DNA of 64,000 nucleotides. Origin: an uncultured Bdellovibrionales bacterium. Its GTDB lineage: Bacteria; Bdellovibrionota; Bdellovibrionia; Bdellovibrionales; Bdellovibrionaceae. Position numbers and translations under genes: made by a program. Of the stretch, positions 23,625 through 33,628 are shown in pieces. The number at the start of each line of letters is the position of its first letter. The stretch's first letter is position 1. The notes under the pieces were generated by a model. It had not been told where the DNA came from. It was given only the letters and a program-made list of their open reading frames with translations, and ran no database searches. Location: assembly GCA_903926205.1 (NCBI GenBank), contig CAIYID010000057.1, forward strand, positions 1 to 64,000. The letters are read 5' to 3'.

Positions 23625-25211
23625 CTAATGAGCTTCCGGGCCGATGATACATTTGATTTCTGGCGGAGTCAGCGGCTTGTCTTGATAACTTCCAAAAATC
23701 TTAGACTCTTTCGAATAAACAATTTTTTCAAGAACAATGGCCCCTGAAGGAGCAACGCTCGCCACACGAAAGCCCACCTTGAGCGTCAAAAATACTCGGC
23801 TCGGACTGTCAGATAACTCTCCATTTATAATGCTGCCATAATAAGGAGGCCAACTTTGATCTGTGCTCACCATTGAATTGAGGAAATACAAAAACGAATT
23901 TGTCTGAGTTTGTCCTTCATGAAGATCTCCGAGCCCCAACAATCCTGGATTCTGCGGAACAATATTAGTTCCCTCAAGATCGCCTAATCCTTTTAGTCCA
24001 TCTTTGTGACCAGCCCCTCCGGTCGGTATTAACATCGACGTGAGTCTTATTAGCAGCTGTTTCGCTTCATTGAGAATCGTCCGATAAGACAAAGTTGGAT
24101 TCGAAAATTCAGCTAAAAGCTGATACTCGTCACCAACGTTGATATCTTGATCTGGAATGGCATGCATGAAAGAAAGCTCACCTAAAAATCGTGCCGGGAC
24201 TGAAATTCCTTGGTACCAGTAAGTGAGAGCTTTGAATAAATCCCGACCAACAGCTTTTTTCTTAAAAGTGAGATGAGCAGATACGGGAGCGGCAAAATCA
24301 CAAGGACTTGTGCACAAGCCATTTTTACAAACTTCTGCACAATTATTATTCACAAAAAATGAAGTCTTGAGCGCGACAAGAGGTTCTGCATTCACTCGAA
24401 GAGTCCTGGATAACAAAGCCTTTCCTAGTTCAATCTGAGCACCATACTGCATCGGCCAAGCTGTTCCAGGAGTTCCTGCATATTTTGCCACAGGAATTAA
24501 ATCATTATCAGGCTGTAAACTCACACGACCAGAAATAACACCAATCTTATCATAAATAGCACTATGTTCGGGAGTAAGGTCTGGAACTTTGTAAATCTCC
24601 AAGCTCGCCTTCACATCCATCGGTCTAATATCGCCTCTTTGTTTTAAAAAACTAAGATTTAGGCAATCGGAATTCATTTTATAGTGAACAGTAAAGACGC
24701 TGTTTTCATAAATTTTAAAAACACACTTAGGCCCACGAGCAATAACTTTATTTTTTGCAACTTGCGAAATTTCACAATTGATTTGCGATAGCGCATCGAT
24801 CTCCCCACGCGCATCCGTAACCTCGGCTTCTAGACAAGTGTTTAAAAGACTTGCCTCGGCATGATAAAAATTAACGATACCCACGTCCGCAGGATTTGAT
24901 ACATTGAAAGGACTGTGCTCAATGGAGCACATTTCCTCCGGAAACTCACCGTCCGGGAATGCAAAAGACTTAGTAATTTCAGGCCTTGTATAAACCGGTG
25001 CACTGACGAGCACAATATACTCACCGACAAATTTATTACAGCTGGCGAACACATAATCGGTTTGATTTCCATGATACGCTTGTCGACCATCTTTATAAGA
25101 TCCCGCAATCGACATGTTTCCATCAGGAATTCGCACACAAGCCCAGGAGGAAGATCCTGGTAATAAATTAAGTAAAATTAGAGCTAAGACTAAGGCATTC
25201 AGCGTTTTCAT
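23625..25211 (-). CDS. Exported protein, last gene of the seven-gene exported-protein operon
   Basis: The protein has 528 residues with a signal peptide (residues 1-23, LALILLNLLPGSSSWAC). It holds about 16 cysteines, including CAEVCKNGLCTSPC, and a Gly-rich middle segment with two similar GLGDL turns (KGLGDLEGT, LGLGDLHEG). The rest looks beta-rich. Its start overlaps the stop of the upstream gene by 4 nt, so it is translationally coupled to it. I do not recognise the family. Likely location is the periplasm or cell surface. It could be a ligand-binding or assembly protein of the system. Confidence 0.72.
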   Translation of the reverse strand: MKTLNALVLALILLNLLPGSSSWACVRIPDGNMSIAGSYKDGRQAYHGNQTDYVFASCNKFVGEYIVLVSAPVYTRPEITKSFAFPDGEFPEEMCSIEHSPFNVSNPADVGIVNFYHAEASLLNTCLEAEVTDARGEIDALSQINCEISQVAKNKVIARGPKCVFKIYENSVFTVHYKMNSDCLNLSFLKQRGDIRPMDVKASLEIYKVPDLTPEHSAIYDKIGVISGRVSLQPDNDLIPVAKYAGTPGTAWPMQYGAQIELGKALLSRTLRVNAEPLVALKTSFFVNNNCAEVCKNGLCTSPCDFAAPVSAHLTFKKKAVGRDLFKALTYWYQGISVPARFLGELSFMHAIPDQDINVGDEYQLLAEFSNPTLSYRTILNEAKQLLIRLTSMLIPTGGAGHKDGLKGLGDLEGTNIVPQNPGLLGLGDLHEGQTQTNSFLYFLNSMVSTDQSWPPYYGSIINGELSDSPSRVFLTLKVGFRVASVAPSGAIVLEKIVYSKESKIFGSYQDKPLTPPEIKCIIGPEAH

Positions 25212-25861
25212 GGAGACACCTCAATAGAAACATTTGGATCAAGTTGAAAAGCACTTCCATCATGCGGTCGACTCTTTGTAAATGAATCTTCGACAAAATT
25301 AAGTCGCACTGTACACCTCATCGACACAACATCTGTCGACAGAGTATTTGTGGCCTTAAAAGATTGTAAATATTCATTACTCACTACGTCGCCTTTACTT
25401 CCGAGCATTGAACATTTCGTATCAACACTGACTCGAGTCGAAGGAAGCTCAATGGGTAGGCTTGCTGAAAATTTAATTTCGTAATTGAGATTATCGGAAG
25501 GAACCGCTCTATTCCAAGTATAACAATATTCTAAATAATATCGAGATCCATAAAAATCAGAATCCAAATTTACAAAAATATCTGTCATTCCGATTGAAGC
25601 ATCCCACCGATCATAAGCTCCATTGAAGTTTTTTGCAGCTTCTAACTGCGAAGTGAACAGAGATGTCGACAAGGCACTCAGACTCATCGTTTTTCCAAAT
25701 TGAGTGTACTGAATAGAATCAACACCCAATTGATTTGAAGTGTTGGAGTTCATAATACCCAAATCACACAAGAAAAGATTTTCAGTATAAGAAGCATGAG
25801 CCAATCCCGTCCATAAGAGGAAAATGGCATTTAAAAAAATCAACTTTCTTGAGTTATTCAT
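25208..25861 (-). CDS. Exported protein, paralogue A of the operon pair
   Basis: The 217-residue protein has a signal peptide (residues 1-23, ending GLAHA). It resembles the next upstream gene product. Shared features are an N-terminal CDLGIMNSN...GVDSI segment, a middle NLDSDFYGSRYYLEYCY strand pair, a KCSMLGSKGDVV segment and a C-terminal MRCTVRLNFVEDS strand. The four main Cys align between the two. The pattern suggests a disulfide-locked beta-sandwich, perhaps a pilin-like or coat subunit. That is inference. It is 13 nt from the paralogue gene and overlaps the next by 4 nt. Confidence 0.72.
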   Translation of the reverse strand: MNNSRKLIFLNAIFLLWTGLAHASYTENLFLCDLGIMNSNTSNQLGVDSIQYTQFGKTMSLSALSTSLFTSQLEAAKNFNGAYDRWDASIGMTDIFVNLDSDFYGSRYYLEYCYTWNRAVPSDNLNYEIKFSASLPIELPSTRVSVDTKCSMLGSKGDVVSNEYLQSFKATNTLSTDVVSMRCTVRLNFVEDSFTKSRPHDGSAFQLDPNVSIEVSP

Positions 25862-25874
25862 AAAATTCTCCTGA

Positions 25875-26801
25875 CTAAAGCGTCCCTATCGTTGCCTGAA
25901 GATCGACTTGAATATCTGAAGCTCCAACTTGGTGTTGTCTTACCTTCCCAGAAGTTTCAACGAAGTAAAACCTCACTCGGCAATCATCTGGGATTTCTCC
26001 GGATTGTAAGGCAGGACCAAAGATCAAAGAATTTCCTGATCCAATTTGAATCCCATCTGACGGCGCCATATCAATCCTCGCATTTCCGGGAAATGGAGTT
26101 AGAAGGTTATTAATAGCTGTAACGCCATTAGGAGTGTAATGCTGTACAACTGTGCCATTCGTTTTTGTGCACTTAATTTCTACCATCGACATCAAACCAG
26201 AATCAGTCGCATAATTGTATGGTGATCCTGGCACTACAGCATGAGTGGCCACCGCATGGACAAATTTCATGCTCATCGGCACGCGCTGATCAGAAGTAAT
26301 CAGTGAAGGTTTGAAGCAAAAAGTGACATAAAAACCAGAATCATAAGTGTCAGATTCCATATTCACTTGGATTCCGGCTCCGTTAAGATTTTGACCAATC
26401 ACATAATCATACATTTTATTTTCAGGAAGCAATTGGTTAAAAGACAAGTAAGGACGGCTAGCCGTGCCGATCAAACCTGATATCACTGTATAATCAGTGT
26501 CCGGATTATTATTTTTAGTAAGACCTCCGACAGCTACACCTGAATCCGCCGTCGCGGCCAAGTTATTTTGAGAAGCCACCCAAGAGGAGCTAATTGAATC
26601 CAGACCTTGTGAAGAAGCTTTTGGATTTTGAGCAATCCCGGCATTGCAAGGGTAAACGTAGTTGGACGAGCTTGTTACTCGAACCTTCACGCTACTCGAA
26701 AGACTCGCCAAAACAAAAGTTGAAGAAAGAACTCCACAGACAAGAAGGCTCGCCTGAAAAGCTCTGTTTTGAATTGATTTATACATAAAAATTCCTTTCA
26801 T
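25875..26801 (-). CDS. Exported protein, paralogue B of the operon pair
   Basis: The protein has 308 residues with a signal peptide (about residues 1-32). It is a longer relative of the 217-residue product downstream: CNAGIAQNPK...GLDSI, NMESDTYDSGFYVTFCF, EIKCTKTNGTVV and DDCRVRFYFVETS match in order. It has an extra central segment between the first and second shared blocks. The ATG lies next to the stop of the trypsin-like protease gene with no gap. No known family was recognised. Tandem duplication with size change suggests two subunits of one structure. Confidence 0.72.
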   Translation of the reverse strand: MKGIFMYKSIQNRAFQASLLVCGVLSSTFVLASLSSSVKVRVTSSSNYVYPCNAGIAQNPKASSQGLDSISSSWVASQNNLAATADSGVAVGGLTKNNNPDTDYTVISGLIGTASRPYLSFNQLLPENKMYDYVIGQNLNGAGIQVNMESDTYDSGFYVTFCFKPSLITSDQRVPMSMKFVHAVATHAVVPGSPYNYATDSGLMSMVEIKCTKTNGTVVQHYTPNGVTAINNLLTPFPGNARIDMAPSDGIQIGSGNSLIFGPALQSGEIPDDCRVRFYFVETSGKVRQHQVGASDIQVDLQATIGTL

Positions 26802-27920
26802 CTAATTCACTGTACTGATTAAATCTTTCAAATAAGGTGCGGGCATCGCGAAATAAGATTTTGAAGTTTTTAATCTCTTTTTCCCGAAAAACCACCAAGG
26901 GCGTGCATAATACTGCTTAAGCTCTACACCTGTACTAATTCCAATCACTCGACCATCAGAAAGAGCCACTGGCCCGCCAGAAGCTCCTGGTAAAACTTCA
27001 ATACTATTTTTCCAAGCGCGGACAAATCCCAGCTTTTTTTCATTTTCGTAAGCTGTAAGTTCCTGCGCGGCACCTTTAAACCACTGTTTTTTAATAAAAA
27101 CAGATTCTTGGGAATCTTTGCTTGGCATTGTATAGGCCACTTCAAAAAGAGTTGCCTCCGTGATTAAAAGCCGATCAAGAATCGCGTCGATAGAAGTATC
27201 GTCAGTATTAGAAAAAATCTTCTCAGCTTTTTTCGCTTGAACACTCGGAAGCTGTCGTTTTAGATCGTAATTTAATTCCATTGTTACTGGGACCAAATCA
27301 TTTTGCTCTGGTAACTTGATTCTAAACGCAGCAAGATCCAATTTTTTGTCAAAATACTCTAAAGATAAAATCTCAGACTTCCAGGGGCTACTTCCATCAA
27401 CAACTGCGGAATTGGTTTGAGTATTAATCGCTACATCATGAAGAACATAAAGCGCCTGGCAGGAATAAGTGGAACTACCGGCAGCCACCCGATCACTAAA
27501 CACATCTTGTGGAACACGACAAAATTGCTCGACCACATGGAAGTTAGTCATAAAAATCATTTGCCCATCGGCGGCTTTTTTAATAGCGAAAGTCGTTCCA
27601 ACACCAACACCGTTTGCTGCCGCTCCAAAGACCATGGCCGTGCTATGCCAAAGAGGAACAAGATCTGAATCTCTTGAAGTTAAACTTTTTAGGTATTCAG
27701 GTACTGCTGGGTTATCACTACCAAACCACAAGATATTATAGGCCGTACTTTGCTGTTCGAGCAGTATTTCATCGACACTAGATAAAATTTTTCCTGCATC
27801 CAAATTAGTAACAAAATGCAAATTCACTTGCTGATGAGAAATAATTTTTTCTTCAGTCAATCCTCCGACTAAAAACAACAAGAGAAAAACAACAGCCCAA
27901 TTTAATCTATTTATATTCAT
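26802..27920 (-). CDS. Exported trypsin-like serine protease
   Basis: This 372-residue protein has an N-terminal hydrophobic segment (residues 8-21) as signal or anchor. It keeps the complete chymotrypsin-fold triad: His128 in TNFHVV, Asp195 in LDLAAFRI and Ser314 in PGASGGPV. There is no PDZ domain, so it is not a standard DegP. Between Asp and Ser there is a long insert. It overlaps the upstream gene by 4 nt and touches the next gene downstream. The best guess is a protease that matures or regulates the exported proteins of this operon. Confidence 0.85.
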   Translation of the reverse strand: MNINRLNWAVVFLLLFLVGGLTEEKIISHQQVNLHFVTNLDAGKILSSVDEILLEQQSTAYNILWFGSDNPAVPEYLKSLTSRDSDLVPLWHSTAMVFGAAANGVGVGTTFAIKKAADGQMIFMTNFHVVEQFCRVPQDVFSDRVAAGSSTYSCQALYVLHDVAINTQTNSAVVDGSSPWKSEILSLEYFDKKLDLAAFRIKLPEQNDLVPVTMELNYDLKRQLPSVQAKKAEKIFSNTDDTSIDAILDRLLITEATLFEVAYTMPSKDSQESVFIKKQWFKGAAQELTAYENEKKLGFVRAWKNSIEVLPGASGGPVALSDGRVIGISTGVELKQYYARPWWFFGKKRLKTSKSYFAMPAPYLKDLISTVN

Positions 27921-29188
27921 TGGAGGTTCCTCATATTTGAAATGGACAGTTGACCAACTTTTGCCGTGCAGGATTCGCCCAAATTAGCAATAATTTTAAA
28001 ATATCCATTTTGCCCCGATCGACAGAATACTCTTTCGACCTGTCCCTTGTGCCCCATAATGAAAGCGTTTGAGGAATCATCACAAAAAGTCTGCATTTTC
28101 GCTTGCAGAATTTTTTGATAGGCTTCTGATATGATAAATGAACCCCCTTGTGCGTTGTCTGCATTTTGGAAAATTCCTCCGAACGTACCTAAAATTGAAT
28201 TGATGATCGACAAGTCACTAAATCCACCCTTTGAAACTGGTGGGTTAAAACTTTGCGATAAAGAGAATGAGTTAAATGAAAAGGAATCCTTTGAATTCAA
28301 ATATGTCATAAGGATTTCGCTGGAGAATCGCTCCATCCCGCAAGAGGTAAACTGACCCTGGTTAAAGTTGGTAATACCCGTCGAAGTCGCATCGTTCTCC
28401 AAGGGAATAGCGCAAGACATACTTGAATGGCACAGCTTTTGACAAACAGGCTCAGAACCTGTCGCACATCCCAAATACTGAACCTCAGTAAATGGTGAGT
28501 ATTGAACCACTTCATATTTCAGCGATAAAGAGTTCCCTGCTTTAACAATATTTTGGTAGGAAGTCTCAATAAGATCTTGTTTCGCCTTTTCTTGATTTAT
28601 ATAGTTAAGTACTTGATCAGCTTTTTTGGCACAATCCTCACCTGTTCTAACAAGCGGAAAAATCGAAACACCACACTTAACCATTGGAACCCCTAACACC
28701 GCGTGTGTTACAGAATCAACAATGGAAATGGCGATAGGTTCAAGCGTTGAGCCAAAAGGACAAAGAGACAAAAATCTCAGGGCAAAACTCTGATCAGCTA
28801 AATCAAGACTGCTGTAGGGAGAGACCGAAAAGATCGGAACCATGGTCGCATATTTAAAAAGTGATTCAGCCTGATTTGTTAAAAAACCTTGCTGATAACA
28901 AGCTGTCGTTAATCCGCCGGCATTATTAAAAAAATCATTGAGATATGGCGATTTAGTTCCAACACAATTAAGACAAGTTGATACTGGCTTTTGACAATGA
29001 TTTGAATTTTGACACTTATCTCGACATTCCTTCTCAGAAGAACAAGAGAGACCAACCATGGGACTTAATTGAGAATCAAAAAAGAAGTTTAAAACCACCG
29101 GAGTTTGCTCCGTCGCAAAAGCCGAACCAGAAATTAAAAAACCGATGATAATTGCTATTTTTGATGAAAATAAATTCATTTTTTTCAT
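27917..29188 (-). CDS. Exported cysteine-rich protein, unknown function
   Basis: The 423-residue protein has a signal peptide (residues 5-25, ending GSAFA). About 21 cysteines follow. Two clusters look alike: CSSEKECRDKCQNSNHCQ near residue 49 and CATGSEPVCQKLCHSSMSC near 245, which suggests an internal duplication of about 195 residues. The TACYQQG and TSCGMERF segments after each cluster support that. Disulfide bonding in the periplasm is likely. It directly follows the 851-residue gene with no gap and overlaps the protease gene by 4 nt. No family recognised. Confidence 0.75.
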   Translation of the reverse strand: MKKMNLFSSKIAIIIGFLISGSAFATEQTPVVLNFFFDSQLSPMVGLSCSSEKECRDKCQNSNHCQKPVSTCLNCVGTKSPYLNDFFNNAGGLTTACYQQGFLTNQAESLFKYATMVPIFSVSPYSSLDLADQSFALRFLSLCPFGSTLEPIAISIVDSVTHAVLGVPMVKCGVSIFPLVRTGEDCAKKADQVLNYINQEKAKQDLIETSYQNIVKAGNSLSLKYEVVQYSPFTEVQYLGCATGSEPVCQKLCHSSMSCAIPLENDATSTGITNFNQGQFTSCGMERFSSEILMTYLNSKDSFSFNSFSLSQSFNPPVSKGGFSDLSIINSILGTFGGIFQNADNAQGGSFIISEAYQKILQAKMQTFCDDSSNAFIMGHKGQVERVFCRSGQNGYFKIIANLGESCTAKVGQLSISNMRNLQ

Positions 29189-31744
29189 CTAATTTCCAAC
29201 CTTTTTTGACAAACAAACAACATTGCCAAAGAAATTTTTGTGACACACAGGACTTTCACCGGGAGAACCTTGAAAGCTGACAGAAATCTGATCTACGTTC
29301 ACTTGGCTATTTTTCACGATATTGTCTGGATCACGAAGATTAGAAATCAGTCGAATCACTCCCTGAAATAAACCGACCCCGGCTGAAGCAATTTGTCCCA
29401 CATAAGGAGCCACACATGCGGACTGAACTATGGACTTCAAACCAAAAGCACACTGAAAGCAAAGCTCTTTGATTTGCTTATCAGTTCGGACCTTTTGATT
29501 TAGAGCTGGATCCAACAAAGCCGATTTATCCACAGTGTATTCAGTGTTTGAGGTTCCATCGCAGGTTCTCAATGATAACTGAGTGTAATATCCTGATGCA
29601 GGTGCATTTTGAGCCGTTAATAAATTATTGCTGACGGCAGCGCCACAAGACAAGCTCGGCAAAAATTGGACATCGATGCCTGCCACATATTTCATCGATT
29701 CTCTCTCTGTAACAGCTCCATAACTAATTTGCTCTTGATTAAAAATTTCCCGATAACCCACGACTTTATTCTCTGGTAACTCAAGCACTTTAAATTGCAT
29801 GGCGCCACAAGAAGCCCCTTGCAACAAAGCCGAGCCTAAATCAGCCACGAAAAGTTTCCATGCATTTCGCTGTTTGCTCCAAGGGTCATAGAGACGGCAA
29901 GCTGTTGGTACTGCGAAATTATTAAAAAGATCTGGGCTCTTCATAATATCATCTAACGGAAGAAACGCATGGGCATATCGCCGAACCGAAACTATTGAAA
30001 TAAGACTTTGAAGAACCGTTCTTGCGCACTCCAACGACGTCCTACAAATAACAGCTTCTTGGCCAGGTCCATTTGATTGTCGAGGGTGGCTGACTAAATA
30101 TTTTTTATCTTGGTTTTTGGGACAAGCTATATGACTTGGATTCTCTTCACATTGACTCAATTTTGTTTTTCCAAAATAAGCATTTTTCATTGTCGGTCGG
30201 AGTAAATCAAAAGCCCATTCGTTCAATGACCGATATATTCCCGAATCCTTGGTGCCCGCAGCCGAGTGCCCACTTGCTTCAAAAGCAGCACAGAAGGACC
30301 CCATGGTCTCCGTCAGTTTTTCATAATAATTAATAAAGGTAGCCAAATCCTTACCAGAGTCTGCCAAAAGAACACTTTGAAGTTCTTGATTGTTATTCAA
30401 AGTTTTAATCTCTGCATCGATATCTTTAAATAAATTATTCTTAGCCAATGTGTATTCGGTGCAAGCCAAATAAGTTTCTACTCCATCGGAGTTCGGATCA
30501 TTTTTTATCATGTTAATGTCTTTAGACATCTCATCTGCACTCATCAAAGAAGTGATGATTTGTAATTTCGGGATTCCGGTATTCAGTTTGGTCATCATAA
30601 AAGTGCGAAGATTTGAAAGATGTTTTTTGAAGTCACGACTCCACTTGCTGGCGTCACCTGATTTAAATAAGCCCAGGCTATCATTATTTACAGGCATTGG
30701 ACGTCCCATAAAGAGTGTATCAATTGGTCTCTCGGGAAGTTCACCAATCGTAGGATCTATCGTTCCCAGAACAGCCGCCGCTCTCAGTACGTCGGAACTA
30801 AGACCAGCCGAATCACATTTTGGCAATTCCACCGATCGACAGCCATTTGGAACAAGCATGACCGAATCTTCAAAAGTAATAGAACTAAACGATTGTTTCA
30901 GTGAGCCAAACTCCTGAATATATTCTGGTGCATATCTCCATGCCCAAGAATAAAAAAGTTTAAAGCTATGCCAAAATTGAAATCCATAGGCATTCCAATC
31001 ATTATCATTAGCTAAATTTGCAATATCCAATTGAACAGTCGTGAAGCGAGCATCAGGTCCCTCAACTAATGAAAAACAACTATCTAAAGTATTTTCGGGG
31101 TTGAAAGATTCCATCGCAATATTTGTTAAAACACCATTATCAATTTGCTGAGTAGCTAAAGGAGAATGAAAAGCTGAAAATTTACGAACAATATGACAAC
31201 CTACCTTTGTAGCCACTTGTAGCTTAGAAGGAAGGAAGTCGTTTTTCGAAAGACCTAGTTCTTGCCAGTTCGGATTTTTCATTTTGGAACGTGACCAAAT
31301 ATCAGAAAGCAAATCATTCATCGAGGGGCAAGAAAGAAACTGATTTTTGCTTAAGCATTTTTCTACAGCTCGATTATAGATAGCTGGAGTCGTACCATCT
31401 TGTTGAAGAAGCGGTAATTGGCCCTTAACAAGGGCATTCATTATGTCAGAAGCGAGGTGTGAACTCCACAATCGAAATTCTTTCGCACTTTTAGCCGCCC
31501 AAAGGTCAGGATTTTCTTTTGGTTGAGTTTTTTGGGCCAAAATACCCTGAGCAAATCCTGCTTTGCCAGCATTGAAGGAATCGACTTGTAAAAAAACTGA
31601 CCGGGCGGGTTTAGTTGATAAGTCAGCGCACCCTGCTCGGTTCGTAAACTCCAGCGGTGCCATATTAAAAACAATAGCACTCGCCGTGTTGGAAAATAAT
31701 AAGACAGTTCCTAATATTTGAGAAAATCTATTTAAAATTTTCAT
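29189..31744 (-). CDS. Large exported cysteine-rich protein of the operon
   Basis: The protein has 851 residues with a signal peptide (residues 1-23, ending NTASA). It has over 20 cysteines along its whole length, with a dense C-terminal group (CFQCAFGLKSIVQSAC). The middle is mainly helical with many Trp, Tyr and Phe. The last 80 residues hold a hydrophobic, Gly-rich stretch (YVGQIASAGVGLFQGVIRL). I do not recognise it. As the largest member of the group it is the likely scaffold or core of the complex. A GGAG lies 8-9 nt before the ATG, and a hairpin lies in the gap to the first gene. Confidence 0.75.
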   Translation of the reverse strand: MKILNRFSQILGTVLLFSNTASAIVFNMAPLEFTNRAGCADLSTKPARSVFLQVDSFNAGKAGFAQGILAQKTQPKENPDLWAAKSAKEFRLWSSHLASDIMNALVKGQLPLLQQDGTTPAIYNRAVEKCLSKNQFLSCPSMNDLLSDIWSRSKMKNPNWQELGLSKNDFLPSKLQVATKVGCHIVRKFSAFHSPLATQQIDNGVLTNIAMESFNPENTLDSCFSLVEGPDARFTTVQLDIANLANDNDWNAYGFQFWHSFKLFYSWAWRYAPEYIQEFGSLKQSFSSITFEDSVMLVPNGCRSVELPKCDSAGLSSDVLRAAAVLGTIDPTIGELPERPIDTLFMGRPMPVNNDSLGLFKSGDASKWSRDFKKHLSNLRTFMMTKLNTGIPKLQIITSLMSADEMSKDINMIKNDPNSDGVETYLACTEYTLAKNNLFKDIDAEIKTLNNNQELQSVLLADSGKDLATFINYYEKLTETMGSFCAAFEASGHSAAGTKDSGIYRSLNEWAFDLLRPTMKNAYFGKTKLSQCEENPSHIACPKNQDKKYLVSHPRQSNGPGQEAVICRTSLECARTVLQSLISIVSVRRYAHAFLPLDDIMKSPDLFNNFAVPTACRLYDPWSKQRNAWKLFVADLGSALLQGASCGAMQFKVLELPENKVVGYREIFNQEQISYGAVTERESMKYVAGIDVQFLPSLSCGAAVSNNLLTAQNAPASGYYTQLSLRTCDGTSNTEYTVDKSALLDPALNQKVRTDKQIKELCFQCAFGLKSIVQSACVAPYVGQIASAGVGLFQGVIRLISNLRDPDNIVKNSQVNVDQISVSFQGSPGESPVCHKNFFGNVVCLSKKVGN

Positions 31745-31775
31745 CCTACTAGCTCCCGTCTCTTCAAAGTTTCAA

Positions 31776-31798
31776 TTAATGAGGTTCCTCCTCACTAA
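31776..31798 (-). repeat. Hairpin between first and second genes of the exported operon
   Basis: Arms of 9 nt (TTAATGAGG and CCTCACTAA, one mismatch) with a 5-nt loop lie 3 nt after the stop of the first gene. No T tract follows on the minus strand. It is more like an mRNA-stabilising or attenuating hairpin than a full terminator, and would raise expression of the first gene over the rest. Confidence 0.5.
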
Positions 31799-31801
31799 CC
31801 A

Positions 31802-32374
31802 TTAGTTACAAGTTGAACCCTTAGTCAGATCCATCACAGTTGTATAAAACAAAATCATTGTTTGCTCAGCTGGTGTAAATTCAGGAAATGTTTGTTCTTC
31901 GCCAGGTTTTGAACTTAGTAAATTTTTCATGTAAGTAGTTACTGCATCATAAACGGATTTATCCACATTGATGTTTTTTGTGCAATGTGTGGTATCCCAG
32001 GAAACCAAAATTCCATAGCCTAACTGATTGGTTGTTGAGCTAGTGGTTCCAGTTCCGACATAGTAATTAGTCGCGCTACCAGTTGTGCTCGGCATAGTTC
32101 CAGTACCCACGTAGGTTGAAACTGTGAACGACTGTTTACTTACCGATGTAGAGAAAAGGGTGCAAAGCGATCCCTTACAATCGACTGCTGCCGATTTTTT
32201 ATCAAGACCGAGTTGATCTTTTGCGGCTGCAAGACTAGCGGCTAAACCACCAGGACTTGCCTGACTGTATTCGCTTCCGTCTGCAAATGCTGCTTTTTCT
32301 GCTACAACGACAAACAGCATACAAAAAACTGCTAATTTCATCGCCTTTGTTCCGGCACATAAATATGATTTCAT
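31802..32374 (-). CDS. Exported Ser/Thr-rich protein, first gene of the operon
   Basis: The 190-residue protein has a signal peptide (about residues 1-31, ending KAAFA) behind a strong AGGAGG site. The mature part has a short internal repeat, YVGTGTMPST (88-97) and YVGTGTTSST (105-114), in a Ser/Thr/Gly-rich loop, and four Cys (66, 71, 131, 189). The size, strong ribosome site and downstream hairpin suggest that it is made in excess over the other operon products, as a major subunit would be. That role is inferred; no family is recognised. Confidence 0.72.
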   Translation of the reverse strand: MKSYLCAGTKAMKLAVFCMLFVVVAEKAAFADGSEYSQASPGGLAASLAAAKDQLGLDKKSAAVDCKGSLCTLFSTSVSKQSFTVSTYVGTGTMPSTTGSATNYYVGTGTTSSTTNQLGYGILVSWDTTHCTKNINVDKSVYDAVTTYMKNLLSSKPGEEQTFPEFTPAEQTMILFYTTVMDLTKGSTCN

Positions 32375-32944: not shown

Positions 32945-33628
32945 ATGCGAATTTCACTAACAAAGAAAATTTCTTTCTTTTTTACCTTTTTAGTTTTCTC
33001 TTCTGCCTCTTTCGCGACTGTAAGTAAAATCGAGATTTTTCCACCTTATTCAGGAGTAGGATGTGAAGACTTAGGCACTGATAACGTTTTTTCTCTTGGC
33101 CTTCATCTTGAGAAGCTCTCAGTTTCGGAAACTGACTCCCAAATTCAACTCACATCTAATAATACGCTCAATCTGTGCGTAAAAAAAAGCGACGGCACTT
33201 TGTCTTGGGAAAAAGTAAATCCATTTGCCGGCTTTGACGTTCCTTTTTATGATATTGCTCTTGGTATAATCTCTCTAAGAAGAGATTATATTGATACAAA
33301 TTCTAAAGCTAACCGATTTGAATTTGGTATTTTTCTGGAAAAAAACCAATCAGCCTTTAAAGCCCTTATGAGAGAGGGTGTCAACACGACGATTGAGGGC
33401 TCCATAAAAATCAACAAGCTTGAACTTCTCGAACAACAAGACATTGACCAATTGAATAGAGGAATTAGCATAAGAAAAGTAATTGAACTTTTTTACGTAT
33501 CAAACATGACGAGCCTTGTTCACGGAGAGACTCTCCAATTTGGAGACGAACCTTGGTCTGAACGGCAAGTGGCGATCACTTTTGTAAAAGAAAATAATAG
33601 TTTTAAAATCAAAAACGTTACTTTTTAA
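32945..33628 (+). CDS. Exported protein, unknown function
   Basis: This 227-residue protein has a signal peptide (residues 1-25, ending SASFA) behind GAGGAG. The mature part has just two Cys (near 40 and 78) and looks beta-rich, with a Leu/Asn-rich end. It is divergent from the exported operon and shares its general style (secreted, beta, AT-rich), so it may belong to the same functional group. No similarity to the operon paralogues was visible by eye. Family not recognised. Confidence 0.68.
   Translation: MRISLTKKISFFFTFLVFSSASFATVSKIEIFPPYSGVGCEDLGTDNVFSLGLHLEKLSVSETDSQIQLTSNNTLNLCVKKSDGTLSWEKVNPFAGFDVPFYDIALGIISLRRDYIDTNSKANRFEFGIFLEKNQSAFKALMREGVNTTIEGSIKINKLELLEQQDIDQLNRGISIRKVIELFYVSNMTSLVHGETLQFGDEPWSERQVAITFVKENNSFKIKNVTF

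Follow-up and report, generated by a model that had tools for sequence, protein, structure and literature searches.

A conserved operon of exported proteins in Bdellovibrionota and its possible role in the biogenesis of OmcE-like cytochrome filaments

To our knowledge, it is an open question how cytochromes of the OmcE type pass through the outer membrane and are built into filaments. One described parallel to the operon analysed here consists of the filament-forming multihaem cytochrome OmcZ and OzpA, a serine protease. In Geobacter sulfurreducens, OzpA acts as the processing protease of the OmcZ preprotein and is encoded at the adjacent locus tag (PMC9473688). The filament of OmcE itself, also from Geobacter, is PDB entry 7TFS (PMC12954529). 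In this work, we describe an operon of seven genes (g1 to g7) in a stretch of 64,000 nucleotides from an uncultured Bdellovibrionales bacterium (assembly GCA_903926205.1, contig CAIYID010000057.1, positions 1 to 64,000; hereafter the window), which encodes a predicted trypsin-like serine protease and six other exported proteins, and whose close relatives lie next to genes for OmcE-like cytochromes. As with OmcZ and OzpA, a filament-type multihaem cytochrome and a serine protease are thus encoded close by, but the likeness is one of analogy and not of homology; the protease g4 belongs to Trypsin_2, OmcZ binds eight haems and the OmcE-like proteins four, and six extra exported families are present here. 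Based on our data, the operon may be an apparatus for the export, assembly, anchoring or maturation of OmcE-like cytochrome filaments, a reading that we hold tentatively and that falls somewhat short of probable.

The operon occupies positions 23625-32374 and comprises the following genes, export being predicted from the N-termini:

31802-32374, minus strand: g1, first gene of the operon, 190 aa, small exported protein of family 4
29189-31744, minus strand: g2, 851 aa, largest exported protein, family 1
27917-29188, minus strand: g3, 423 aa, exported, doubled family-2 protein
26802-27920, minus strand: g4, 372 aa, predicted trypsin-like serine protease (Trypsin_2), marker of the protease subtype
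25875-26801, minus strand: g5, 308 aa, exported, family 0, predicted all-beta
25208-25861, minus strand: g6, 217 aa, exported, second family-0 member, 4 Cys
23625-25211, minus strand: g7, 528 aa, exported, family 3

From g1 to g7 the junctions measure 57, 0, -4, 0, 13 and -4 nt (negative values are overlaps), and the tight leftward packing described in an earlier note made from the window's letters, with a gap of 57 nt after the first gene, was recovered at the same coordinates. All seven products have a hydrophobic N-terminal segment, as that note had also read, and in g1, g2, g3, g5, g6 and g7 this looks like a cleavable signal peptide. After the signal region, g1 to g7 hold 4, 22, 18, 2, 4, 4 and 12 cysteines; these even counts are consistent with fully paired disulfides. 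Pfam, NCBIfam, PHROGs and PADLOC name a single domain in the operon, the Trypsin_2 domain of g4, which bears out the claim that only the protease has a known domain; the six remaining products match no described family in the libraries or fold searches used. Chaperone-usher, curli, type IV pilus and type II secretion-type systems likewise have several small exported subunits per operon. Chaperone-usher, secretin, type IV secretion-type and curli systems were considered and rejected: Pfam and NCBIfam matched no usher, chaperone, secretin, ATPase, prepilin, pilin or curli family in the seven products, in keeping with the earlier note, which had seen no usher, chaperone, secretin or secretion ATPase.

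Homologues of g4 were found in seven of 369 Bdellovibrionota genomes, all of which also carry g2, and we refer to this form of the operon as the protease subtype. A search of the same phylum with a tetrahaem protein of G181 as query placed OmcE-like homologues in five of the 369 genomes, namely the window's own (G000), G180, G181, G182 and G350, and every one of the five is protease-positive. When shared descent is ignored, so full an overlap would arise by chance with a probability of 3.8e-10 counted over genomes and 4e-6 over genera. Multihaem cytochrome genes directly adjoin the operon at four protease-subtype loci whose flanks were read (G180, G181, G182 and G350), and a gene with several haem motifs was seen at just one of the remaining scanned loci, L056. 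The linked tetrahaem proteins carry four CXXCH motifs and are sequence homologues of OmcE, matching 7tfs with E-values from about 1e-21 (1.4e-21 for the 211-aa protein of G181, encoded divergently from g1) to 1e-15 (2.5e-15 for the window genome's own tetrahaem protein). In contrast to OmcE, these homologues are putative filament proteins, and the operon encodes no cytochrome itself, only having one as neighbour or companion. A family with paired CXXCH motifs is present in 58 genomes, several of which have it in many copies and lack the protease operon, and therefore the link to OmcE is not a mere sign of genomes rich in multihaem proteins.

The arrangement of the cytochrome genes follows two patterns. 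On a single strand of G350, genes for a 4-haem protein, an NHL propeller, a 4-haem and a 3-haem protein precede g1 to g7; in G180, G181 and G182, a module of 4-haem, NHL, 3-haem and 5-haem genes is divergent from g1 at a distance of 266-342 nt. Further tetrahaem genes lie downstream of g7 in G180 and G181, where that side was readable. The window genome has an intact 4-haem, NHL, 4-haem and 3-haem module in the order of G350 on contig C89 (L175:5186-8267). The same contig encodes, along with this OmcE-like module, a 10-haem protein (L175:11517-12473) and a secreted protein of 137 aa, look-alikes of which accompany the modules of G350 and G180. On contig C85, a g1-like protein (L160:8105-8617, E 3.6e-19) with three copies of F-P-E-F-T-P-A-E-Q-T-M and without a clear signal peptide ends a cluster of 7-, 2- and 4-haem proteins, which also holds a 414-aa protein without Pfam match.

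Several observations weigh against a role in cytochrome filaments. No multihaem gene is found in the window or in the part of its contig that was read besides, and the window genome's cytochromes are not beside the operon. The phylum search returned no OmcE-like gene in the protease-positive genomes G199 and G200, and the co-occurrence rests on three genera. Neither an outer-membrane channel, nor an energy source, nor a cytochrome-binding site was found, and the model of g2 has no fold match. Finally, OmcE-like genes are absent from the canonical-type genomes checked, including the one that we take to be Bdellovibrio bacteriovorus HD100; this common subtype does without cytochromes, and the system's core role therefore cannot be cytochrome-specific. 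The existence of a cytochrome-free subtype points to a broader function in the envelope or at the surface, which the protease branch would have turned to cytochromes. In its most specific form, the operon would be a dedicated machine of the outer envelope for the export and assembly of extracellular cytochrome nanowires, with a maturation step by a protease at the inner membrane, and would represent one branch of an undescribed, phylum-wide system for assembling surface filaments whose other members handle non-cytochrome cargo. We regard this extended version as doubtful.

The same observations can be read in another way, in which the genes build a disulfide-bonded surface structure of their own, an adhesive fibre or coat of g5, g6 and g7 beta-sandwiches on a g2 base, and the cytochromes are passengers, both aiding life on mineral surfaces. 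The cytochrome-free common subtype would fit, as would G199 and G200, in which the protease subtype occurs without OmcE-like genes, and the presence of two family-0 copies in most operons. The AlphaFold model of g5 (pLDDT 60, pTM 0.62) is predicted to be all-beta, and its top Foldseek matches in the PDB are beta-sandwiches of streptococcal pilins and adhesins; these matches prove nothing, because the TM-scores are about 0.2 and the model is of low confidence. Moreover, a passenger relationship gives no reason for the presence of the protease in each of the five genomes with OmcE-like genes. We consider a separate surface structure unlikely, without dismissing it.

Coming back to a function in filament biogenesis, the protease subtype with which it is linked is a well-defined branch. 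Most loci have no protease, and roughly one-third of these other loci encode instead an exported family-5 protein, about 390 aa in length (L046:2537-3733 and L056:15532-16695 are examples), which is never found with the protease and is missing from all protease loci. With its invariant residues D63-C64-A65-D66 and H166 it looks like a putative cysteine hydrolase or transglutaminase, but the protein has no Pfam or PDB match; it is a candidate for the system's alternative enzyme. Where contigs extend far enough, the protease gene directly follows a family-2 gene, and the doubled form of family 2 is found in all complete protease loci and in two partial ones. The order of the window (g1, g2, doubled g3, protease, g5, g6, g7) is repeated at L129, L133 and L144, and at L145 with one family-0 gene less. 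Among the 64 g2 proteins placed in a tree, those of the protease subtype, five in number, group as one clade (SH-aLRT 100) that spans three host families; the window's g2 has its nearest relative in host family f26 and not in f1, to which the window itself belongs. Members of the subtype share 40-51% identity with the g2 of the window, as against 17-28% for g2 proteins from elsewhere. By gene order and g2 clade, the window operon belongs to the protease subtype. The simplest reading of this distribution is horizontal spread of the whole operon; an old duplication followed by losses may also account for it.

The classification of g4 as a predicted trypsin-like serine peptidase relies on its match to PF13365 (Trypsin_2; E 1.6e-7, 32.6 bits against a cut-off of 27.6) and on a catalytic triad, H128/D195/S314, that is conserved in all six aligned homologues, as are both of its cysteines. 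The N-terminal hydrophobic stretch of g4 has no A-x-A end and no clear cleavage site, and the same is true of its homologues, suggesting that the protein is likely anchored, uncleaved, in the inner membrane with its protease domain in the periplasm. A trypsin-like domain behind a probable N-terminal anchor is also what g4 has in common with HtrA and DegS, and the operon could accordingly be imagined as a unit for quality control or stress response in the envelope, its anchored DegS-like protease attacking exported proteins that have misfolded. This is very improbable. HtrA models gave short, weak matches to g4, well under cut-off (best NCBIfam E 0.0025), and Pfam detected no PDZ domain, so that neither feature of the HtrA/Deg family was present; in addition, the operon encodes no regulatory partner. 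As it is confined to one subtype, the protease is dispensable for the system in general, the families of the other six products persisting without it. Many of the Bdellovibrio copies have, at a distance of a few kb, genes of the trypsin family PF00089 that are separate from the g4 family (flanks of L042, L043, L045, L047, L049 and L050).

Conservation across the phylum was followed by reading the neighbourhoods of about 70 loci, with core families counted over the 50 that have enough flanking DNA. Relatives of g2 were found in 33 of the 141 genomes of the order and, by a search with the g2 alignment, in 75 of the 369 Bdellovibrionota genomes, belonging to 30 of 182 genera. All five core families (family 4 for g1, 1 for g2, 2 for g3, 0 for g5 and g6, 3 for g7) are present at 48 of the 50 well-flanked loci, and two family-0 copies are the rule. 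Gene order varies by lineage, and the genes stay together even where they are split divergently (L036, L059 and L135); linkage kept despite rearrangement is a good indication that they act as a single functional unit. The gene-order comparison proposed in the earlier note therefore came out in favour of conservation, and no product, apart from the protease, turned out to belong to a known family. In several genera of host family f12 (L117, L121, L126 and L128), the system occupies a conserved spot beside an apparent uvrB, a label judged by eye from the N-terminus, and this position suggests old vertical inheritance. A solitary g1 homologue (L161:8475-8987) occurs in a Bdellovibrio-group genome (G012) without the remaining genes. 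A scan of genome contigs with g3 returned no relative, and the contig scan with the g2 alignment used a motif absent from the protease subtype, being thus uninformative on this subtype beyond the phylum.

The predators of the group allow a further proposal to be weighed, namely that the operon encodes a complex for attachment to prey or for invasion, as the earlier note had supposed. Copies are indeed present in B. bacteriovorus (three in strain kdesi and two in the probable HD100 genome) and in metagenome-assembled genomes (MAGs) of Bacteriovoracaceae. In the probable HD100 genome, one copy (L046) lies near a gene for an extracytoplasmic function (ECF)-type sigma factor at the start of the locus. 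The Bd0743/Bd0745 region of HD100, with a sigma factor of this type, has been described (PMC3464611), and the L046 gene is probably Bd0743, which, if the locus match is right, would place L046 near dgcB (Bd0742), a gene needed for predation. Nevertheless, Bdellovibrio genomes carry from none to three copies, several having given no match in the g2 alignment search; the protease subtype tracks filament cytochromes instead; and no mention of the copies of the probable HD100 genome was found in the main text of open predation papers. An attachment or invasion role thus lost most of its appeal and seems improbable to us. Two duplicated operons of B. bacteriovorus, Bd2209-Bd2212 and Bd2723-Bd2726, have uncharacterised products for which complexes centred on one large protein are predicted (PMC12034629). 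They resemble the present system in being duplicated and in combining uncharacterised proteins with a large one, and differ in having four genes, other protein sizes and other inferred positions in HD100, a distinction made by description.

The individual families share a strong conservation of cysteines. In g2, 16 of the 22 are invariant across 57 relatives, and in g7 8 of the 12. The sequences of g5 and g6 form one family, and g5 residues C52, C162, C211 and C274 are invariant across 52 relatives, which agrees with the earlier observation that the pair shares four cysteines. Two family-2 domains make up g3 (iE 3.9e-23 and 2.1e-5; 18 Cys), whereas the family-2 proteins of other loci have 8 Cys and a length of about 200 aa. 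Homologues of g1 take the first-gene position in nearly all loci and end in a conserved motif, F-T/P-A-E-Q-T-M-I-L-F-Y-T-T, the mature part having 4 Cys. The AlphaFold model of g2 (mean pLDDT 72.7, pTM 0.74) is predicted to be helical up to about residue 520 and beta-rich at 649-767, and a fold search of PDB and BFVD gave no match with E < 0.2. Profile searches of the PDB with g1, g2, g5/g6, g7 and the family-5 enzyme yielded nothing credible.

If the operon does serve cytochrome filaments, g1, g2, g3, g5, g6 and g7 would form one disulfide-bonded envelope complex. This complex would act in the periplasm or at the outer membrane to export, assemble, anchor or mature the tetrahaem subunits. At the inner membrane, g4 would cleave and thereby process a partner protein, for which the doubled g3, whose gene lies immediately upstream, and a cytochrome are candidates. 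The proposal of a disulfide-bonded complex with a protease of its own, made in the earlier note, is supported in its first part, as a conserved and co-inherited set of exported, disulfide-rich proteins with a periplasmic protease fits one complex; that the protease matures or controls it is a step that we infer.

As to the surroundings of the operon, an exported protein of 227 aa without Pfam match is encoded divergently upstream of g1 (32945-33628, plus strand), and no counterpart was noticed beside other loci. A foreign origin found no signal in base composition (40.4% GC in the operon, 41.7% in the window), and a phage or defence origin was likewise rejected, PHROGs and PADLOC yielding weak matches to the protease and nothing else. 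A search with g2 gave no match among 72,556 plasmid records, and a scan for sigma-70 promoters was uninformative (20 sites observed against 20.1 expected).

We found no name for this system, and within the sources searched it appears new, with a function that can be tested. Six uncharacterised exported families conserved together in about one-fifth of a phylum that includes the best-known bacterial predators amount to an unnamed envelope system. Filament-type cytochromes in a Bdellovibrionota genome are noteworthy in themselves, and since all Bdellovibrionota genomes in which OmcE-like genes were found also have the operon, it offers a concrete candidate for the biogenesis of such filaments.

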